Origin: Alphaproteobacteria bacterium
GTDB lineage: Bacteria; Pseudomonadota; Alphaproteobacteria; Bin65
Direction: 5' to 3'
Assembly: GCA_021776685.1 (NCBI GenBank)
Contig: JAJFFJ010000062.1
Coordinates: forward strand, 1 to 41,763
DNA: 41,763 nt
Position numbers and translations under genes: made by a program. Of the stretch, positions 4,310 to 32,520 are shown in pieces. The stretch's first letter is position 1, and each line of letters begins with the position of its first letter. The notes under the pieces were generated by a model. The model ran no database searches. It saw only the letters and a program-made list of their open reading frames with translations, and was not told the DNA's origin.

Positions 4310-6424
4310 ATGCCGCAACGGCACATCTTTGAGGCCCAAATGCCGCTCGACGCGCAGCCCGAAATTCATCATTCCACTTGCCCCCATGACTGCCCCAGCT
4401 GCTGTGCCTTGGAGGTGGAGAAGATCGATTCCCACACCATTGGCCGGGTCAGGGGCGCCAAGGACAACAGTTATACCGACGGCGTGATTTGCGCCAAGGT
4501 CGCCCGCTATGCCGAGCGCGTACATCATCCGGACCGGTTGAAGACGCCGCTTCGACGGGTCGGCGAAAAAGGCTGCGGCCCTGAAGGGTTCGAGCCAATT
4601 TCCTGGGAAGACGCGCTGGACCTGACAGCGGACGCCTTCCTGCGCGCGGAGGAAAAATACGGCGCGGAGACCGTGTGGCCCTACCAGTATGCCGGGACCA
4701 TGGGGCTGGTGCAGCGCGACGGCATCCACCGCCTGCGCCACGCCAAGAAATACTCCCGCCAGCACGATACCATCTGTTCCAGCCTATCGAATGCCGGCTG
4801 GCGGGCAGGCGCGGGCGTCAACCGCGGCGTCGATTGCCGGGAGATGGAGCATTCCGACCAGATCATCATGTGGGGCGGCAATCCGGTGTCGACCCAGGTG
4901 AATGTGATGCACCACATCAGCCAGGCGAAGAAGAACCGAGGCGCCAAGCTGGTGGTGGTTGACCCCTATCGCACCGGCACGGCGGAACAGGCCGACTTGC
5001 ATGTGATGCTGCGCCCGGGCACGGACGGGGCGCTCGCTTGCGCGATGATGCATGTGATGCTGCGCGACGGGCTGGCCGACCGCGCCTATATGGTGAAATT
5101 TACGGACGTCCCGGAAGAGCTGGAGGCTCACCTTGCCGGCCGCACGCCCGAATGGGCAGCGGAGATCACCGGCCTCTCGGCCCAGGAGATCGTCGACTTC
5201 GCCCATCAGTACGGCAATGTCGACCGCACCTTCCTGCGCATCGGCTACGGGTTCACACGCTCCCGCAATGGCGCCGCAAACATGCATGCGGTGAGCTGCC
5301 TGCCGGCGGTCTCCGGACACTGGCAATATCGGGGCGGCGGCGCCCTGTTCACCCAGTACGGCATCTACAACATCGATTTCAGGTTGATCGTAGGCGCAGA
5401 CCTTTTGGATCGCGATACCCGGCTGATCGACATGTCGCGCATCGGCCCGGCATTAACCGGTGACACCTACGATCTGGGCGATGGGCCGCCGATTACCGCC
5501 ATGCTGGTGCAGAACACCAATCCCGTGGTGGTCGCGCCTGACTCCAACAAGGTGCGGGAAGGCTTCGCGCGAGACGACCTGTTTGTCTGCGTCCATGAGC
5601 AGTTCCTGACCGACACCGCGCGCATGGCGGATATTGTCCTCCCGGCCACGACCTTCCTGGAACATCACGATATCTATATGGCCGGCGGCCATACCCATCT
5701 GCAGGTGACCAAGCCGGTTATCGAGCCGCAGCATGAAGCGCGGCCCAACCACCATGTTCATTGTGAGCTGGCCAAGCGGCTGGGCGCCGAACACCGTGGT
5801 TTCGAGATGACCGAGTGGGAGATCATCGACGAAACATTGCGCGCGTCCGGCCATCCCGGCGCGGATGAGGTCCATGCCATGCATTGGCTGGACTGCGCGC
5901 CGGATTTCTCGACCCAGCATTTCCTGGGTGGATTTGGCACTGACGACGGCAAGTTCCACTTCCGCGGTGATTGGGCCAAGGTTGGTTTTCTGGAGCCGGA
6001 ACGCATGCCGCCGCTGCCGGACCATATGAACGTGATCGACAATGCGGATGACGACCATCCCTTCCGGCTGGTGGCCGCGCCCGCGCGCAGCTACCTCAAC
6101 AGCAGCTTCACCGAGACACCCACGTCGCAAAAGCGCGAAGGCCGACCGGAGGTGATGATGCACCCGGTGGATTGCGCCGAGCTGGAGATCGCGCGAGGAG
6201 ACCTGGTGACCCTGGGCAATGGGCAGGGTGAAGTGACGGTCCACGCCCGTCCCTTTGACGGCATCCAGCGCGGCGTGGTGGTGGTGGAGAGCATCTGGCC
6301 CAACACTGCCTTTGCGGGCGGGCGCGGCATCAACACCCTGATCAGCGCAGACCAGGGCCCGCCGTTGGGGGGCGCTGTTTTCCATGATACAAAAGTGTGG
6401 ATAAAATTGGCGCCGCAGGCCTGA
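4310..6424 (+). CDS. Molybdopterin-dependent oxidoreductase (DMSO reductase family)
   Basis: A 704-residue DMSO-reductase-family protein. Cys24, Cys28, Cys32 and Cys61 (in TCPHDCPSCC and GVICAK) form the N-terminal 4Fe-4S site; Cys31 is an extra cysteine next to the third ligand. The middle holds the MGD-binding Rossmann-like segments (IIMWGGNPVSTQVN, KLVVVDPYRTGTAEQAD, MLVQNTNPVVVAPD, DIVLPATTFLE). The C-terminal 110 residues are the molydop-binding beta-barrel (VMMHPVDCAELEI, GDLVTLGNGQGEVTV). No twin-arginine signal is visible, so it is likely cytoplasmic. The start could also be ATG 4340. No electron-transfer partner subunit lies next to it; the divergent flavoprotein is the nearest redox neighbour. 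Substrate unknown. Confidence 0.88.
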   Translation: MPQRHIFEAQMPLDAQPEIHHSTCPHDCPSCCALEVEKIDSHTIGRVRGAKDNSYTDGVICAKVARYAERVHHPDRLKTPLRRVGEKGCGPEGFEPISWEDALDLTADAFLRAEEKYGAETVWPYQYAGTMGLVQRDGIHRLRHAKKYSRQHDTICSSLSNAGWRAGAGVNRGVDCREMEHSDQIIMWGGNPVSTQVNVMHHISQAKKNRGAKLVVVDPYRTGTAEQADLHVMLRPGTDGALACAMMHVMLRDGLADRAYMVKFTDVPEELEAHLAGRTPEWAAEITGLSAQEIVDFAHQYGNVDRTFLRIGYGFTRSRNGAANMHAVSCLPAVSGHWQYRGGGALFTQYGIYNIDFRLIVGADLLDRDTRLIDMSRIGPALTGDTYDLGDGPPITAMLVQNTNPVVVAPDSNKVREGFARDDLFVCVHEQFLTDTARMADIVLPATTFLEHHDIYMAGGHTHLQVTKPVIEPQHEARPNHHVHCELAKRLGAEHRGFEMTEWEIIDETLRASGHPGADEVHAMHWLDCAPDFSTQHFLGGFGTDDGKFHFRGDWAKVGFLEPERMPPLPDHMNVIDNADDDHPFRLVAAPARSYLNSSFTETPTSQKREGRPEVMMHPVDCAELEIARGDLVTLGNGQGEVTVHARPFDGIQRGVVVVESIWPNTAFAGGRGINTLISADQGPPLGGAVFHDTKVWIKLAPQA

Positions 6425-9070: not shown

Positions 9071-9991
9071 ATGAGCACAACCGTCCGCAAGGCAGTGTTT
9101 CCCGTGGCCGGCCTTGGCACCCGTTTCCTGCCGGCAACCAAGGTGTTGCCCAAGGAAATGCTGGTAGTGGTGGACAAGCCGCTGATCCAGTATGCCGTCG
9201 AAGAAGCGGCAGCGGCCGGTATCACGGAGTTCATCTTTGTCACCTCCCGGGGAAAGACCCTGGTCGAGGACCATTTCGATCATCACGAGGAACTGTTTGA
9301 GGCGCTTGCCGGGCGCGGCCGGCTGGATGAGCTGGAAATCGTCCGCAGCGTGGTGCCTGACGGCGCTGTCTTCGCCGCCACCCGCCAAGCCCAGCCACTG
9401 GGTCTGGGCCATGCGGTGTGGTGCGCCCGCGACCTGGTGGGCGACGAGCCTTTTGCGGTGATCCTGCCGGATGATCTGGTCAAGTCGGAGACGCCCTGCC
9501 TTCAGCAGATGATGGATGCTTATGCAGACAAGGGCGGCAACCTGGTCGCCGTCGTCGATGTGCCACGGGAACAGACCAACCGCTACGGCATTCTGGAGAC
9601 CGCCAGCGATGATGGTGGCGAAGGCAGCCTGGTGGAAATCACCGGACTGGTCGAGAAACCCACGCCGGAAGAGGCGCCGTCCACATTGTCCGTGATCGGC
9701 CGGTATATCCTGCAGCCAGACATATTCGCCCTTCTGGAGCGCGGCGAGCGGGGCGCGGGCGGCGAGATCCAGTTGACCGACGCCATGGCCAGGCTCATCG
9801 GCGCACAACCCTTGCATGGCCTGCGGTACCGTGGCCGGCGGTTTGATTGCGGCAGCAAGGTAGGCTATGTGGCTGCCAACGCCGCCTTTGCGCTGGATAC
9901 GCCGGACCTGTCGGTGCGGATCGAGGCCGAGCTCCGGGACTTGCTTGAAACGGCCCAACGCGGCGCACCAGACGGCGCTCAGGGGAACTGA
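9071..9991 (+). CDS. galU: UTP-glucose-1-phosphate uridylyltransferase
   Basis: A 306-residue GalU that makes UDP-glucose from UTP and glucose-1-phosphate. The N-terminal nucleotide-binding signature is AVFPVAGLGTRFLPATK, followed by LPKEMLVVVDKPLIQYAVEEA. AVILPDDLV, VEKP and the late RGRRFDCGSKVGYV block also match the family. ATG 9071 was chosen because it gives the family N-terminus. An in-frame TTG at 9011 has GGAG in front of it and would add 20 unconserved residues. The gene is 122 bp after the J-domain gene and 3 bp before ugd, starting a sugar-nucleotide cluster with ugd and the hexose-phosphate mutase. Confidence 0.95.
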   Translation: MSTTVRKAVFPVAGLGTRFLPATKVLPKEMLVVVDKPLIQYAVEEAAAAGITEFIFVTSRGKTLVEDHFDHHEELFEALAGRGRLDELEIVRSVVPDGAVFAATRQAQPLGLGHAVWCARDLVGDEPFAVILPDDLVKSETPCLQQMMDAYADKGGNLVAVVDVPREQTNRYGILETASDDGGEGSLVEITGLVEKPTPEEAPSTLSVIGRYILQPDIFALLERGERGAGGEIQLTDAMARLIGAQPLHGLRYRGRRFDCGSKVGYVAANAAFALDTPDLSVRIEAELRDLLETAQRGAPDGAQGN

Positions 9992-9994
9992 CTT

Positions 9995-11326
9995 ATGCAG
10001 ATTGCGATGATTGGCACGGGCTATGTTGGCCTGGTGTCAGGCGCGTGTTTTTCGGAATTCGGCACCCATGTGGTGTGCGTCGACAAGGACGCGTCCAAGA
10101 TCGACACCCTGAAGCAGGGCGACATTCCGATCTTTGAGCCGGGTCTGGAGGGACTGGTTGCCGCCAATGTGACGGCCGAACGCCTGTCCTTCACAACGGA
10201 TCTGCCGGCTGCTGTCTCTGCAGCGGATGCGGTTTTCATTGCCGTGGGCACGCCGTCCCGCCGCGGCGATGGACATGCGGACTTGAGCTATGTCTTTGAG
10301 GCAGCGGAGGAAATTGCGCGGTCTCTCACCGGCTATACGGTGGTGGTGACCAAGTCCACGGTTCCGGTTGGCACCGGGCGGGAAGTAGCGGCCCGGATCG
10401 CGGCGGCCAATCCCGATGCCGACTTCGACGTCGTCTCGAATCCGGAGTTCCTGCGGGAAGGCTCGGCCATTGGCGATTTCATGCGCCCGGACCGGGTCAT
10501 CATCGGCGCCGAATCGGACCGGGCGCAGGAGGTCATGCGCGAAGTCTACCGGCCGCTGTTTATCAACGAGACGCCGATCCTGTTCACCCGGCTGGAAACG
10601 TCCGAGATGATCAAATATGCGGCCAACTGTTTTCTCGCCACCAAGATAACCTTCATCAACGAGATGGCTGATCTGTGCGAGAAGGTGGGCGCAGATGTTC
10701 AGGATGTGGCGCGTGGCATTGGCCTGGACGGGCGCATCGGTAACAAGTTCCTTCATCCGGGACCTGGATACGGTGGCTCCTGCTTCCCCAAGGATACGCT
10801 GGCGCTCGTGCGGACAGCGCAGGATGCCGAGGCGCCCCTGCGCATCATCGAAACCGTTGTGGACGTCAATGACGCGCGGAAGCGGGCGATGGCGGACAAG
10901 GTCATCGCCGCCTGTGGCGGCTCTGTCACCGGCAAGACCATCGCCGTGCTTGGCCTCACCTTCAAACCGAACACCGATGACATGAGGGACAGCCCCAGCC
11001 TGGACATCGTGCCGGCCCTGCAGGCCGCGGGCGCTAGCCTGCGCGCCTATGATCCGGAGGGCATGGATGAGGCCAAGGCATTGCTGGATGGCCTGACCTG
11101 GTGCGAGGACGCCTATGCGACCATGGAAGATGCCGACGCGCTGGTGATCGTCACCGAATGGAACGAGTTCAGAAACCTGAACCTGGCGCGGGTCCGCGGG
11201 TTGCTGAAATCACCGGTGCTGGTGGATCTGCGCAACATCTACAATGTGCCGGACATGGCAGCCGCGGGCTTCGACTATATCTCGGTGGGCCGGCCGCTTG
11301 CCGCCTACGGCAGCACGGACGCCTGA
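9995..11326 (+). CDS. ugd: UDP-glucose 6-dehydrogenase
   Basis: A 443-residue NAD-dependent dehydrogenase that oxidises UDP-glucose twice to UDP-glucuronate. The Rossmann motif GTGYVG is at residues 7-12. The catalytic Cys263 sits in the family signature GPGYGGSCFPKDT. The central helix region ETSEMIKYAANCFLATKI and the C-terminal GLTFKPNTDDMRDSPS block are typical. GGGGAACTG precedes ATG 9995, 3 bp after galU, so UDP-glucose production and oxidation are translationally close. The product feeds exopolysaccharide or lipid A/LPS sugars. Confidence 0.95.
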   Translation: MQIAMIGTGYVGLVSGACFSEFGTHVVCVDKDASKIDTLKQGDIPIFEPGLEGLVAANVTAERLSFTTDLPAAVSAADAVFIAVGTPSRRGDGHADLSYVFEAAEEIARSLTGYTVVVTKSTVPVGTGREVAARIAAANPDADFDVVSNPEFLREGSAIGDFMRPDRVIIGAESDRAQEVMREVYRPLFINETPILFTRLETSEMIKYAANCFLATKITFINEMADLCEKVGADVQDVARGIGLDGRIGNKFLHPGPGYGGSCFPKDTLALVRTAQDAEAPLRIIETVVDVNDARKRAMADKVIAACGGSVTGKTIAVLGLTFKPNTDDMRDSPSLDIVPALQAAGASLRAYDPEGMDEAKALLDGLTWCEDAYATMEDADALVIVTEWNEFRNLNLARVRGLLKSPVLVDLRNIYNVPDMAAAGFDYISVGRPLAAYGSTDA

Positions 11327-11333
11327 CCGAAAT

Positions 11334-12722
11334 ATGGCTGGCTACGTCCTGACGCCTTCGATCCTTCGGGAATATGACATTCGCGGTGTTGCCGGCGACA
11401 CCCTGCGGGTCGAGGACGCGCGGGTCATCGGCCAGGCCTTCGGAACCGTGGTGCGCGACCGGGGTGGCAGCAGTGTCTGCGTCGGTTGGGATGGCCGTCT
11501 GAGCACGCCGGATCTACGCGACGCCCTGGCTGACGGTCTGCGCGCGGCGGGGGTGGACGTGTGGCGCGTGGGCCTGGGGCCGACGCCGATGCTGTATTTT
11601 TCGGTCCACCATTTTGGCGCTGATGCGGGCATCATGGTCACGGGTTCCCACAACCCGCCGCCCGACAATGGCTTCAAATTCGTGATGGGCAAGGCACTCG
11701 GCGGCGGCAGTTTCTTCGGCGACGATATCAAGGCCATGGCCGTGCGGGCGGCGGCGGGCGATCTGTTACAGGGGCAGGGGGCGTCCGAGGAACGGCCGGC
11801 TTTCGACGCTTATGTGGACCGCTTGCTGGAAGAATTTTCCGGCGACCGGGATTTGAGCGTGGTCTGGGATTGCGGCAACGGCGCCGCCGGAGAGGTGGTT
11901 GCGGCGCTGACCAGGCGGATGGCCGGCAATCAGGAGGGACTGTTTACCGAGATCGACGGAACCTTCCCAAATCACCATCCCGACCCCACTGTTGCCGCCA
12001 ACCTGCGCGATCTTCAGCAGGCGGTCTCCGCCGCCAGCGCGGATCTGGGAGTCGCGCTGGACGGGGACGGAGACCGGATCGGCGTTGTTGACGGTGACGG
12101 CAATATCCTGTGGGCAGACCAGCTGATGGTGCTGTTTGCACGCGACCTGCTCAGCCGCAGTCCCGGCGCACCGGTCATCGCCGACGTCAAGGCCAGCCAG
12201 GTGCTGTTCGACGAGATTGCCGCGGCAGGCGGCCAACCTGTCATGTACAAGACCGGTCACTCGCTCATCAAATCCCGCATGAAGGAGATGAACGCAGGTC
12301 TTGCCGGCGAGATGAGCGGGCACATTTTCTTTGCCGACCGCTATTACGGCTTCGACGATGGTCTCTACGCTGCGTTGCGCCTGATGCGGATTCTGACCGA
12401 GCAGCCGATGGCGCTGACCGCTTTTTATGCGGCGCTGCCCAAGCCCTGCAACACGCCGGAATTGCGCTTTCCCTGTGCGGATGATCGAAAAGCTCCGGTG
12501 ATCGCGGAAGTGCGAAGTCGGCTGCCGGCCGACGCGGTGATCAACGAGATCGATGGCTTGCGGGTGAGTACGGACGGCGGCTGGTGGCTGCTGCGCGCCT
12601 CCAACACCCAGTCGATGCTGGTAGCCCGGTGCGAGGCCCAGGACGAGGCTGCGCTGGCCAAGATCCGAGGTGAGCTTGGCGCGTCATTGGCGCTTTCAGG
12701 CATCCAGCTTCCGGATGGCTGA
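11334..12722 (+). CDS. Phosphomannomutase/phosphoglucomutase
   Basis: A 462-residue alpha-D-phosphohexomutase that interconverts hexose 1- and 6-phosphates through a phosphoserine. Ser105 in MVTGSHNPPPDNGFK is the phosphorylated residue. DGDGDR at 243-248 is the metal-binding loop, and GEMSGH at 325-330 is the sugar-binding loop. The C-terminal RASNTQSMLVARCEA matches the phosphate-binding domain. ATG 11334 was chosen over an upstream start because homologous N-termini begin at about ILREYDIRG. It starts 7 bp after ugd. As a glucose-1-phosphate supplier it would sit directly upstream of GalU; a mannose role (PMM/PGM type) is equally possible, so no symbol is given. Confidence 0.92.
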   Translation: MAGYVLTPSILREYDIRGVAGDTLRVEDARVIGQAFGTVVRDRGGSSVCVGWDGRLSTPDLRDALADGLRAAGVDVWRVGLGPTPMLYFSVHHFGADAGIMVTGSHNPPPDNGFKFVMGKALGGGSFFGDDIKAMAVRAAAGDLLQGQGASEERPAFDAYVDRLLEEFSGDRDLSVVWDCGNGAAGEVVAALTRRMAGNQEGLFTEIDGTFPNHHPDPTVAANLRDLQQAVSAASADLGVALDGDGDRIGVVDGDGNILWADQLMVLFARDLLSRSPGAPVIADVKASQVLFDEIAAAGGQPVMYKTGHSLIKSRMKEMNAGLAGEMSGHIFFADRYYGFDDGLYAALRLMRILTEQPMALTAFYAALPKPCNTPELRFPCADDRKAPVIAEVRSRLPADAVINEIDGLRVSTDGGWWLLRASNTQSMLVARCEAQDEAALAKIRGELGASLALSGIQLPDG

Positions 12723-27347: not shown

Positions 27348-30300
27348 TTAGCTGCACCCGCTGGTTTCGCCGCAGGTGTCGCATTTCATGCAGGTGCCAT
27401 TGCGCACCAGGGTGAAGTTTCCGCACCCACCGCACGGATCGCCTTCGTAGCCCTTCATGCGAGCTTCGCGGATGCGAACCAGTTTCTTGTCCACGTTGCT
27501 GGCCACTTCCGCTGTGACGGCGATGACCTGGGTGTGCTCGGTCGTCTCGATTGTTGTGCCGTTGCCGCCAGAAGCCGCCGTAGGCGCGGCGGCGAGGGCT
27601 GTGACCTGATCCCCGCTGCTGTCGTTGCCATTGGTTGGGCTCGCAATTGGGCTCGCAGTTGGGCTGGCGGCCGGCGCTGTCGGCGCATCGCCGTTCTGGA
27701 AGTATGAGAAGCGGTTGCGCATGTACCCGATGCTGGCGACGCGCTTGACTTCATCAAGCATGGTCTCGGCGGCCTGCTCTGCGCCTGGATTATCTGGCAC
27801 CGCGCTTTCGTCAACGCCGCGTCCCATGCTGTCCGGGGCCATGTCGCCCGGTGTCGCGTGGGCAAGGTCGTCCCGGCCCAGGTAACTGATCGCCAACTCG
27901 CGGAAGACATAGTCCAGGATCGAGGTCGCCATCTTGATGGCGTCATTGCCCTCGACCATGCCGGCCGGCTCAAAGCGGGTGAAGGTGAACGCGTCGACGA
28001 ACTCTTCCAGCGGCACGCCGTACTGAAGGCCGATGGAGACGGCGATGGCGAAGTTGTTCATCAGGCTGCGGAAGGCGGCGCCTTCCTTGTGCATGTCGAT
28101 GAAGATCTCGCCGAGTGCGCCATCCGCATACTCGCCCGCATGGAGATAGACCTTGTGACCGCCGATGATCGCCTTTTGGGTGTAGCTTCGGCGGCGATTG
28201 GGCAGTTTGCGCCGTTCACTGCGTACGATGTGCTGAACAATCTGCTCCGCCATAATGACGGAGCGCTGTGCAGCCGGCGCTTCGATGACGCGTTCTATCG
28301 TCTCGGCGGCTTCGTCTTCGTCGCCGATTTCGTCGAATATGGTCGATGCGAGCGGCTGGCTCAGCTTGGAGCCGTCGCGGTAGAGCGCATTGGCCTTCAG
28401 GGCCAGCTTCCACGACATCTCGTAGGCGCTGCGACAGTCTTCTACGCTCGCATCCGCCGGCATGTTGACGGTCTTGGAGATAGCGCCGGAGATGAACGGC
28501 TGGGATGCGGCCATCATCTTGATATGGCTCTGCCAGCTGAGATAGCGCTTGCCGAGCTTACCGCAGGGATTGGCGCAGTCGAAGATTGCCAGGTGCTCGT
28601 CTTTGAGGTGAGGTGCGCCTTCCAGAGTCATTGCGCCGCAAACCCAGGTGTTGGCCTGGTCGATCTCGTCACGGCTAAAGCCAAGTGCGGCCAGCATGTC
28701 GAAGCTGGGGTCGTCCAGATCGGCGGCATCGAGATCCAGTTCCTCGACGCAGAACTGCTCGCCGAGCGTCCATTTGTTGAAGACGAACTTGATGTCGAAG
28801 GCGCTGCCGAGCGCATCCTCGATCGTGCCGATCACCTCTGTGGTGAAGCCCTTGTCGCGCAGTGCGTCATGGCCAATCGAAGGTGAACCCTTGAGGGTGC
28901 CACGGCCGACGGCATAGTTGATGATCTCTTCCACATGGCGCTTCGAATAGCCGAGCGTTTCAAGTGCCGGCGGCACCATGCGGTTGATGATCTTGAAATA
29001 GCCGCCGCCGGCGAGTTTCTTGAATTTGACCAGCGCGAAGTCCGGCTCGATGCCGGTGGTGTCGCAATCCATCACAAGACCAATGGTGCCGGTGGGCGCA
29101 ACAACAGTGGATTGCGCGTTGCGGTAGCCGTGGGCTTCGCCTTTGGCCAGCGCCCGGTCCCAGCTGTCTTTGGACGCCGCGGACAATGCATCGTCCGGGC
29201 AGTTTGCATGGTCGAGGGCCACCGGAGTCACAGACAGCTTTTCATAGCCATCAGTTTCCCCGTGCGCCGCGCGGCGATGGTTGCGAATCACCCGCAGCAT
29301 GTGCTGGCTGTTATCCGCGTAGCCTGGGAAGGCGCCGAGCTCTTCTGCCATCTCGGCTGAAGTCTCATAGGCGACGCCCGTCATGAGCGCCGATATTGCC
29401 GCACAGATCGCGCGGCCCTCGTCACTGTCATAGGGTTGGCTCGAGGCCATCAGATAGCCGCCGATATTGGCAAAGCCGAGTCCCAACGTGCGGTAACGGT
29501 AGGACAATTCAGCGATGCGCGCCGACGGGAACTGCGCCATCAGGACCGAAATTTCGAGGGTGATCGTCCACAGCCGGACGGCATGCTCAAAGGCCGCCAC
29601 ATCGAGCGTACCGTCGGCCTGACGGAAGGTCATCAGGTTGAGCGACGCCAGATTGCAGGCTGTGTCGTCCAGGAACATATATTCCGAACAGGGGTTGGAC
29701 GCGTTGATGCGCCCGCTGGCGGGGCAGGTGTGCCAGTCGTTGATTGTGGTGTCGTACTGGACCCCCGGGTCCGCTGACTGCCAGGCAGCCTCGGCGACTT
29801 TTTCCCACAGTTTGGCGGCGCTTCGGGTTTCGGTAACGCCGGTGGTGCGGCTCTTCAGCTGCCACTCGTCATCCGCTTCCACGGCATGCAGAAAATCGTC
29901 GGTCACCCGGACAGTGTTATTGGAATTCTGGCCAGAGACCGTGAGGTAGGCTTCGGAGTCCCAGTCGGTGTCGTACTGCTCAAATTCCACTTCGGTCTTG
30001 CCCTGACGCGCCAGTTGCAGCACGCGCTGGACATAATTTTCCGGGATCCTCGCTTGGCGCGCCTTGCGGATGGCGGCCTTCAGCGACGGATTGCTCTTTG
30101 GATCGAAGGGATCGGCGCCGTCGAAGTTGATGATCGCGTCGATGACGTCATTGAGGCATCTGAATGTGACGCGCGAGCCTGAGACGAGGGCCGCCACCTT
30201 GCGCTCCTCGATCACCTTCCAGTCGATGAATTTCTCGATGTCCGGATGGTCGATGTCGACGATGACCATCTTGGCCGCCCGGCGTGTGGTGCCGCCGGAC

Positions 30301-31082
30301 TTGATCGCGCCCGCAGCCCGGTCGCCGATCTTCAGGAAGCTCATCAGACCGGAGCTTTTTCCGCCACCTGACAGCGGCTCGTTCTCGCCACGGAGGGAGG
30401 AAAAGTTTGTGCCGGTGCCGGAGCCATATTTGAACAGCCGGGCTTCGCGGACCCACAGGTCCATGATGCCGCCTTCGTTGACCAGATCGTCATTGATCGC
30501 CTGAATAAAGCAGGCGTGAGGCTGGGGGTGTTCGTAGGAGGATTTTGACTTGGTCAGTTTGCCGGTTTGGTAGTCCACATAGCTGTGGCCCTGGCCCGGC
30601 CCGTCGATGCCATAGGCCCAGTGGAGACCTGTGTTGAACCATTGCGGCGAATTCGGCGCTGCCATCTGGCAGGCCAGCATGTAGCGCATCTCGTCGAAAT
30701 AGGCGCTGGCATCCTCGGCGCTGTCGAAATAGCCGCCCTTCCAGCCCCAATAGGCCCAGGTGCCGGCAAGTCGGTCGAACACCTGCTTGGCGCTGTGCTC
30801 ACCGCCCTTGCGGGCGCCTTTGGCGGCCTTCTTTCGCCACAGGAACTCGGGCATATCGTCTTCCTTGACAGCCTGAAGCTTCGAGGGCACGCCGGCCTTG
30901 CGGAAATATTTCTGCGCCAAGACGTCGGTGGCTACCTGCGTCCACGACTCCGGCACTTCCACCTTGTCATTCTGGAAGACGACCGATCCGTCCGGATTGC
31001 GAATCTCACTGACCGCTTTCCGGAACTTGATCCGGTCATAAGGGCTTTGAGACTCTTCGGTGAAATGGCGCTTGATTTGCAT
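27348..31082 (-). CDS. nrdJ: Vitamin B12-dependent (class II) ribonucleotide reductase
   Basis: A 1244-residue NrdJ that reduces ribonucleotides using adenosylcobalamin, oxygen-independent, in the cytoplasm. Key blocks are the phosphate-binding and active-site signature NPCSE with [11 protein letters not shown] after it, the [20 protein letters not shown] loop, [11 protein letters not shown], and the [21 protein letters not shown] barrel segment. The C-terminus has the [19 protein letters not shown] motif, two Cys pairs that serve as a zinc site and redox tail. Length is normal; no intein is inserted. ATG 31082 was chosen because GGAG lies 5 nt upstream and the N-terminus [11 protein letters not shown] fits the family. 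NrdR-like boxes lie at the likely promoter. Confidence 0.96.
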
Positions 31083-31269
31083 CGGCTCCCCGACCCCTTT
31101 TTCTTTTCTGGGGCCGACGCCTGGTGCATGGCGCGTCCCCGGATGATGTCGCATCCCCCTGCGACGCGCTTGTTGCCGTATCCTCTCTGATGCCTTTCGG
31201 CGTGGGCGGGTCCCCGTTCGTCTTCGTCCCGCCCCCAGATGTCGTGCACGCAGTGCGCAGTGGGCCTAG

Positions 31270-31298: not shown

Positions 31299-31305
31299 TA
31301 AATTT

Positions 31306-31371
31306 CCACAATATGTAGTGATTTGAGCGGTCCAAAACACAATAGAAAGCATTTGAAACAATATATGGTGG
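31306..31371. promoter_or_regulatory. Three NrdR-box-like sites upstream of nrdJ
   Basis: Box 1 at 31306-31321 (CCACAATATGTAGTGA) and box 3 at 31356-31371 (AAACAATATATGGTGG) each match the published NrdR consensus at about 13 of 16 positions. Box 2 at 31337-31352 (ACACAATAGAAAGCAT) has a perfect left half and matches at about 12. Boxes 1 and 2 are 31 bp apart centre to centre, the usual three-turn spacing. NrdR represses ribonucleotide reductase genes when dATP is high, so control of nrdJ is expected. Confidence 0.65.
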
Positions 31372-31439: not shown

Positions 31440-31588
31440 GAAAAAAACTCGACCCCGTGATGGCCGTCACAGCCGTTCATCGTGGGCTCATGTAGATTAC
31501 CGCTCACTGGGAACAGGCCACGCGACAGGCCGACGCCCAGTGGAGCGACAGGAACCTCGGCGGCGGTCTTCGGACCGCCGCTTTTTTT
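31440..31588 (+). ncRNA. Candidate small RNA ending in an intrinsic terminator
   Basis: An 11-bp stem with one bulge joins 31501-31511 to 31536-31547 (CGCTCACTGGG with CCCAGTGGAGCG). Its 24-nt loop carries two copies of ACAGGCC (31513-31519, 31525-31531); a third ACAGG follows the stem at 31548. Twelve bases after the stem comes a strong terminator. No protein gene on the + strand lies upstream within the gap, so an RNA gene is the simplest reading. The 5' end and promoter are not clear; the left boundary is a guess. I could not match it to SRP, 6S, RNase P or tmRNA. Confidence 0.45.
31560..31588 (+). terminator. Intrinsic terminator, + strand
   Basis: A 9-bp perfect GC stem (31560-31568 with 31573-31581) is closed by a TTCG tetraloop and followed by seven T (31582-31588). 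No T-run follows on the - strand, so it acts for + strand transcripts, although it lies 29 bp past the end of a - strand gene. Confidence 0.88.
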
Positions 31589-31617: not shown

Positions 31618-32520
31618 CTAGTTGGCCGTGGTGGCCGGGCGCTCCAGGCTGACCAGCAGCACCGCGGCAATTACCATGGCCGCACCCACATATTGCACCG
31701 GGTCCAGGACCTCGCCGAGCACGAGCATGGCGACGAAAATGGTGACCACCGGCTCGTTGTTCATGATCAGTGCGCCGCGCGGGCCGCCCAGGTACGAAAT
31801 GCCGATATAAAAAGTAAGAATGGCCGTGGCGAAGCCGATGGAGACTGCGGCCAGCGCCCACCACGCATTCGAATGGGCCGGTAACGCCCCGTCGCCGCTG
31901 ACCACAAATATGATCAGTGAGACAACCAACACCGCGACCATCATATGGAAGATCACACCCACGCGCGGCAGCCGCAGCATCATCCGTGAGCTGCCGACCA
32001 CGTTGATGGCAAAGCCCACCGCGGTCGCCAGGCCCAGCAGAATGCCGGCAAGCGCCACATCGCCGCCGCCCACATTCAACGCGATGGCCAGGCCGATAAA
32101 CGCGATGCCAGCTGCCATAATGCGAAGTGGCGTCAGTCGTTCATGGCCCAGTGCGGCGGAAAGCAGACCGACCAGGATCGGCCCCAAATAGAGCAGCAGC
32201 ACGGTCAGGCTGACGGGGATGAGCAAGATCGCATAGAGGAAGCATGCATTGATTGCGGCAAAGGCGACGCCTAGGCCCCACAACTTCGCGCAGTCGGTCA
32301 GGCCGTAGCGCAGATGGGTACGGCCAATCATGGCCCAAATCAAAACCACCACGACCATCGCCATCGTGCGCGTCATCAGCACCGTCGGTGGTGTCAGGCC
32401 CTGGTCATAGGCAATCTGCGCCAGCACATTTGAGAAGCTGAAGGCGACGGTGGAGAACAGAAGGATTGGGACGCCCAATGCCGGGTTCTGGGCGGTGCCC
32501 TGGTTTGTGCCCGCGCTCAT
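31618..32520 (-). CDS. EamA family transporter (second of a pair)
   Basis: A 300-residue inner-membrane protein with about ten predicted transmembrane helices in two EamA repeats (about residues 15-140 and 155-290). Typical family cues are the opening ILLFSTVAFSFSNVLAQIAYDQG, the end of repeat one (PVSLTVLLLYLGPILVGLLSAALGHERL), and the matching end of repeat two (NNEPVVTIFVAMLVLGEVL). EamA proteins export amino acids, metabolites or drugs; the substrate cannot be read. It begins 1 bp after the stop of its paralogue (TGA-T-ATG), so the two are translated from one message. Confidence 0.9.
   Translation of the reverse strand: MSAGTNQGTAQNPALGVPILLFSTVAFSFSNVLAQIAYDQGLTPPTVLMTRTMAMVVVVLIWAMIGRTHLRYGLTDCAKLWGLGVAFAAINACFLYAILLIPVSLTVLLLYLGPILVGLLSAALGHERLTPLRIMAAGIAFIGLAIALNVGGGDVALAGILLGLATAVGFAINVVGSSRMMLRLPRVGVIFHMMVAVLVVSLIIFVVSGDGALPAHSNAWWALAAVSIGFATAILTFYIGISYLGGPRGALIMNNEPVVTIFVAMLVLGEVLDPVQYVGAAMVIAAVLLVSLERPATTAN

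Follow-up and report, generated by a model that had tools for sequence, protein, structure and literature searches.

The window, i.e. the whole stretch of 41,763 nt analysed here, is contig JAJFFJ010000062.1 of assembly GCA_021776685.1, from an Alphaproteobacteria bacterium (lineage Bin65). A terminator had been noticed on its plus strand and described as orphan, the basis for the original prediction of a candidate new small RNA. It is indeed orphan since both flanking genes, nrdJ and a gene for an EamA transporter, lie on the minus strand. Upstream of the stem preceding this terminator, our analysis uncovered a complete activator-type promoter (31441-31498) that had been missed. The features of the locus are listed below.

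27348-31154 at its longest, minus strand: nrdJ, an adenosylcobalamin-type ribonucleotide reductase gene (by sequence)
31441-31447, plus strand: A-tract, UP-element-like (an A-run is also found upstream of the contig 13 promoter copy)
31456-31471, plus strand: CRP-type dyad CGTGATGGCCGTCACA (CGTGA-N6-TCACA), centred at 31463.5
31472-31490, plus strand: spacer, the same as in one promoter on contig 13
31493-31498, plus strand: -10 hexamer TAGATT (TAGGGT, TAGGTT, TAGGCT or TAAGTT in sibling promoters, at the same 21-nt spacing)
31505-31588, plus strand: predicted small RNA (sRNA) of about 84 nt, its start placed by promoter geometry and its end by the terminator
31505-31542, plus strand: 5' stem-loop CACTGGG...CCCAGTG with an inner GGCC/GGCC helix
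31543-31558, plus strand: linker GAGCGACAGGAACCTC, mostly exposed according to unpaired probabilities, a candidate pairing region
31559-31588, plus strand: intrinsic terminator with TTCG tetraloop and T7 (terminator scan and sequence)
31618-32520, minus strand: EamA transporter gene

Two NrdR-box-like sequences, about 53 bp apart, were also observed before nrdJ (CCACAATATGTAGTGA at 31303-31318 and AAACAATATATGGTGG at 31356-31371); relatives displayed similar AT-rich boxes upstream of this gene.

The terminator was found as described, with a 9-bp stem and TTCG loop (GCGGCGGTC/TTCG/GACCGCCGC, 31560-31581) followed by seven T (31582-31588), which provide the Rho-independent terminator with the U-tail of at least seven residues that serves as an Hfq-type criterion. 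The terminator scan gave 10 pairs (31559-31582), on the plus strand only. It was by far the strongest of the five terminator-like sites of the region, where 1.7 were expected; the minus strand displayed only a weak one (31466-31450).

The predicted transcription start, 31505, lies 7 nt after the -10 hexamer. This places the dyad centre at -41.5, i.e. in class II geometry, a position of the activator established from E. coli CRP. Two features counted against an sRNA gene, the imperfect TAGATT hexamer and the poor -35 region; the latter implies that the promoter would need an activator. A 35-bp promoter block, from dyad to spacer, recurred once in the genome, on contig 13, before a gene for a secreted protein. 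There, a -10 sequence TAAGTT occupies the same place and identity ends right after it. Neither the block nor its spacer was found in 142 relatives when up to 3 mismatches were allowed.

Within 31505-31588, neither ATG nor TTG occurs and the single GTG is located within the stem, so that a terminator-ended transcript would be devoid of coding capacity. The complete RNA folded far better than its shuffled versions (z -4.7; 0/200 as good). The 11-bp bulged stem initially proposed is real as a sequence, as part of a DNA palindrome that includes untranscribed flanks (31501-31547; -28.2 kcal/mol for this stem-loop alone, z -4.8, 0/500 shuffles as good). Yet the CGCT at 31501-31504 that completes it sits 3-6 nt from the -10 hexamer and, since the promoter places the start at about 31505, is probably not transcribed, leaving 7 bp (CACTGGG/CCCAGTG) in the RNA. 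Likewise, the three ACAGG copies pointed out earlier are present (31513, 31525 and 31548), but their repetition is at chance level (p about 0.05-0.10): some 5-mer occurred three times in 4.7% of shuffles and a duplicated 7-mer was found in 10%. The two ACAGGCC copies are not fully single-stranded in the loop, as had been thought, since their GGCC parts are self-complementary and form pairs between the two copies. At the border of stem and linker, GGAGCGAC (31541-31548) recurs in the Shine-Dalgarno regions of genes under CRP control, two of them on contig 13 and others on contigs 10 and 106; it has one further occurrence in the window.

Dyad promoters of the same genome also precede other terminator-ended RNAs without ORF, one on contig 76 and several arranged in tandem on contig 110; as in 31456-31498, the dyad and the -10 hexamer are separated by exactly 21 nt. 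The array (11400-12070, minus strand; L083 2400-3070) comprises four short terminator-ended RNAs, each with its own CRP-type dyad and a TAGGGT or TAGGTT -10 hexamer; three dyads are exact and one is degenerate (TGTGC-N6-TCACT), all at the same 21-nt spacing. A stem at +1 would open the contig 110 RNAs and likewise the RNA encoded by 31505-31588, which has a promoter architecture in common with these siblings and a different body.

Three of the contig 110 RNAs form a family with the contig 76 copy (5484-5570), characterized by exposed CUCCC motifs and scoring 25-30 bits against Rfam suhB/MmgR (gathering 41). Membership of the present RNA in this family of three stem-loops was rejected: it displays no CUCCC and is not listed by R1, the covariance model of the contig 110/76 family. 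R1 matched strongly in this genome only; weaker matches elsewhere reached 41 bits, much of which came from terminators, and none of those inspected outside the genome had a CRP dyad at promoter position. A CUCCC-containing terminator-ended RNA on contig 148 (11931-12029, plus strand; L087 1432-1530) scored 30.8 bits to R1. It ends just before a CRP-type dyad and contains CCTGTTCC, the complement of GGAACAGG in the 31505-31588 RNA. One other genome, G050, had 29 R1 matches on both strands, many in overlapping pairs, which suggests a palindromic repeat that is dispersed and carries terminator-like hairpins.

A clear enrichment of this promoter type was observed at the genome level. YGTGAN6TCACR dyads numbered 25, versus 3 in the reversed control, and GTGAN6TCAC-N21..23-TANNNT combinations 19, versus 1. 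Proteins with signal peptides, as judged by eye, were encoded downstream of such sites on contigs 13, 48, 79, 82, 93, 104, 106 and 138, and probably also downstream of dyad promoters on contigs 10, 65 and 157. These signal-peptide proteins are small and their promoters consist of the dyad, 21-23 nt and TANNNT; contig 13 carries a tandem pair of such genes, the second member displaying a weak Peptidase_M78-like match.

Four proteins of the genome displayed a Crp-type HTH above the Pfam cut-off. The one encoded on contig 71 has a cNMP domain and, as its recognition helix, TRETVARAIGEL; this Crp-type RETVxR helix resembles the RE(T/M)VGR that marks the Crp main cluster. By inference, the contig 71 protein is the first choice as putative regulator of the dyad. 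A second candidate, a Crp-family protein on contig 141 (TREAVNKVL helix; 9195-12499), appears to differ from the protein that regulates the 31456-31471 dyad. Sites TGTGAACCACTTCACA and TGTGAACCAGTTCACG were seen at its locus; they are of the TGTGAACC type, and one is directly upstream of its own gene. By analogy, this protein may display a CgrA-like autoregulation, its sites resembling the R. centenum CgrA operator TGTGAAGCAGTTCACA.

The complete promoter, the enrichment of dyad/-10 combinations and the sibling RNAs without ORF indicate that the locus is very probably an sRNA gene of about 84 nt within a cNMP-CRP regulon. The candidate small RNA is supported by an activator-type promoter at canonical spacing, by the lack of any start codon behind a plausible ribosome-binding site, by an intrinsic terminator, and by sibling loci of the same layout within the genome. 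More precisely, 31441-31588 (plus strand) is likely to constitute a free-standing, CRP-activated sRNA gene, whose product would probably act in trans in the post-transcriptional arm of the regulon.

No Rfam family was recovered, in line neither with Xoo2 (RF02241, 28.8 bits for a gathering threshold of 45) nor with suhB/MmgR (RF00519, 15.9 bits for 41); the search advised with the original prediction gave none at gathering and, with permissive thresholds, none above cut-off. Both models resemble the RNA in having a small stem-loop and a GC-rich terminator, and the match is mostly due to the latter. BLAST searches with the locus against 60 relatives returned only terminator or chance matches, and those with the RNA body against 385 genomes of the class no homologue, the inspected matches lying inside long open frames. 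Likewise, no homologue was found among 10 family members and no paralogue of the body elsewhere in the genome. The nrdJ-EamA synteny is kept in several family members and also, outside the family, in one genome that belongs to another; no sRNA was present upstream of nrdJ in these genomes, nor at any of 80 nrdJ loci of named genomes. Searches of genome contigs yielded no congener with NrdJ (best identity about 80%) and no match with EamA. As far as can be seen from the sequences, the RNA body is lineage-specific. Since the promoter block is common to a protein gene and the body is unique, the locus appears to be an sRNA gene of recent origin.

The octamer GGAGCGAC and the promoter shared with contig 13 suggest that the sRNA gene may originate from the promoter and leader of a protein gene. 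The same observations, together with the absence of the locus from all relatives of the same synteny and the identity of the octamer to Shine-Dalgarno regions on contigs 10, 13 and 106, could be read as a decapitated gene, i.e. a CRP-controlled gene for a secreted protein that lost its ORF, so that its promoter now yields a functionless terminated leader. We consider this unlikely: identity to contig 13 ends right after the -10 hexamer, the 5' stem-loop is far more stable than shuffled sequences, the Shine-Dalgarno-like octamers are short, and the sibling sRNAs make RNAs without ORF normal in this regulon.

The RNA might alternatively act in cis, as an antisense to the 3' UTR of the EamA mRNA, modulating its 3' end or blocking read-through into nrdJ. 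It is encoded on the opposite strand, 30 nt past the EamA stop codon, and this mRNA meets no strong terminator before about 31450, where the weak site mentioned above is located. Yet nrdJ and EamA are adjacent in relatives without such an RNA, and the sibling sRNAs have no common arrangement of that kind, which makes a cis antisense role quite improbable.

Two further proposals link the RNA to its co-induced siblings. In the first, the cyclic-nucleotide CRP regulon of this little-studied lineage would pair small secreted proteins with sRNAs, and a lineage-specific RNA derived from a duplicated secreted-protein promoter and leader would mimic a Shine-Dalgarno sequence, as a decoy or sponge for co-induced anti-Shine-Dalgarno sRNAs; we regard this as very unlikely. 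The second, a sponge acting on CUCCC-type sRNAs under CRP control (contigs 110, 76 and 148), with AACAGG/AGGAAC facing CCUGUU(CC), appears slightly less probable still. Although the contig 148 RNA offers an 8-nt perfect complement (CCTGTTCC) and a contig 110 RNA the 6-nt TCCTGT, chance is expected to produce such matches at this scale, and duplex energies with the sibling sRNAs were not clearly above those of shuffles (z -1.8 at best).

The titration of a protein, as initially envisaged, has next to no likelihood in its CsrB/RsmZ form: one of the three ACAGG is an ACAGGA in the exposed linker, but it provides the only GGA in proper context, the repeats are at chance level with half of each base-paired, and CsrA, the only well-known protein that ACAGGA-like sites bind, was not found (no PF02599 match in the 98.9%-complete assembly), which largely refutes a CsrA sponge.

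The free-standing, CRP-activated sRNA gene is therefore the reading retained here. In the mechanism that we infer for its expression, regulator, Hfq contact and targets, a cyclic-nucleotide-responsive CRP-type protein would bind the dyad at -41.5 and activate the sigma-70 promoter with its TAGATT -10 hexamer. RNA polymerase would then start at about 31505 and stop at 31588, giving an RNA of about 84 nt made of the 5' stem-loop, the exposed linker and the terminator. The regulon would comprise several sRNAs, this one among them, and otherwise mostly small proteins of the envelope or secreted ones; such a composition implies that the RNA probably acts in trans. Base-pairing of the exposed linker or of the loop with mRNAs appears as its likeliest action, perhaps with Hfq at the U-tail; GCGACAGGAACC and ACGCGACA are the candidate pairing stretches. 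Among the 11 regulon leaders to which the pairing analysis was restricted, no z fell below -1.7 and none paired clearly better than shuffled sequences.

Free-standing sRNAs under direct CRP control are known from enterobacteria, e.g. CyaR and Spot 42, the latter being repressed rather than activated; the present RNA has no sequence relation to either. The locus thus joins the known kind of CRP-activated sRNAs and is unrelated in sequence to any described family. To our knowledge, few CRP-controlled sRNAs have been reported outside enterobacteria, and the one from Sinorhizobium has no known role. In S. meliloti, Clr directly induces the sRNA SMelC181 together with a set of genes whose products are in many cases signal-peptide proteins without an assigned role (PMC10127613). 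By analogy, the Clr regulon is a close precedent: both cases involve an alphaproteobacterial sRNA, induction by a cNMP-responsive Crp-family protein (putative here) and a regulon rich in signal-peptide proteins, a likeness of regulation and regulon composition. They differ in the operator, GTNNCNNNNGNNAC for Clr and TGTGA-N6-TCACA here, and in the presence of several such sRNAs in our genome (PMC10127613). TGTGA-N6-TCACA operators are also encountered in another alphaproteobacterium, Rhodospirillum centenum, where CgrA binds them and mainly activates; in contrast to the present regulon, the targets given in the part of that source considered here are cyst-development genes, and sRNAs are not named among them (PMC4681086).

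The present genome would thus provide a second alphaproteobacterial regulon of signal-peptide proteins and sRNAs, here with several sRNA genes, which suggests a recurring design and offers testable loci.
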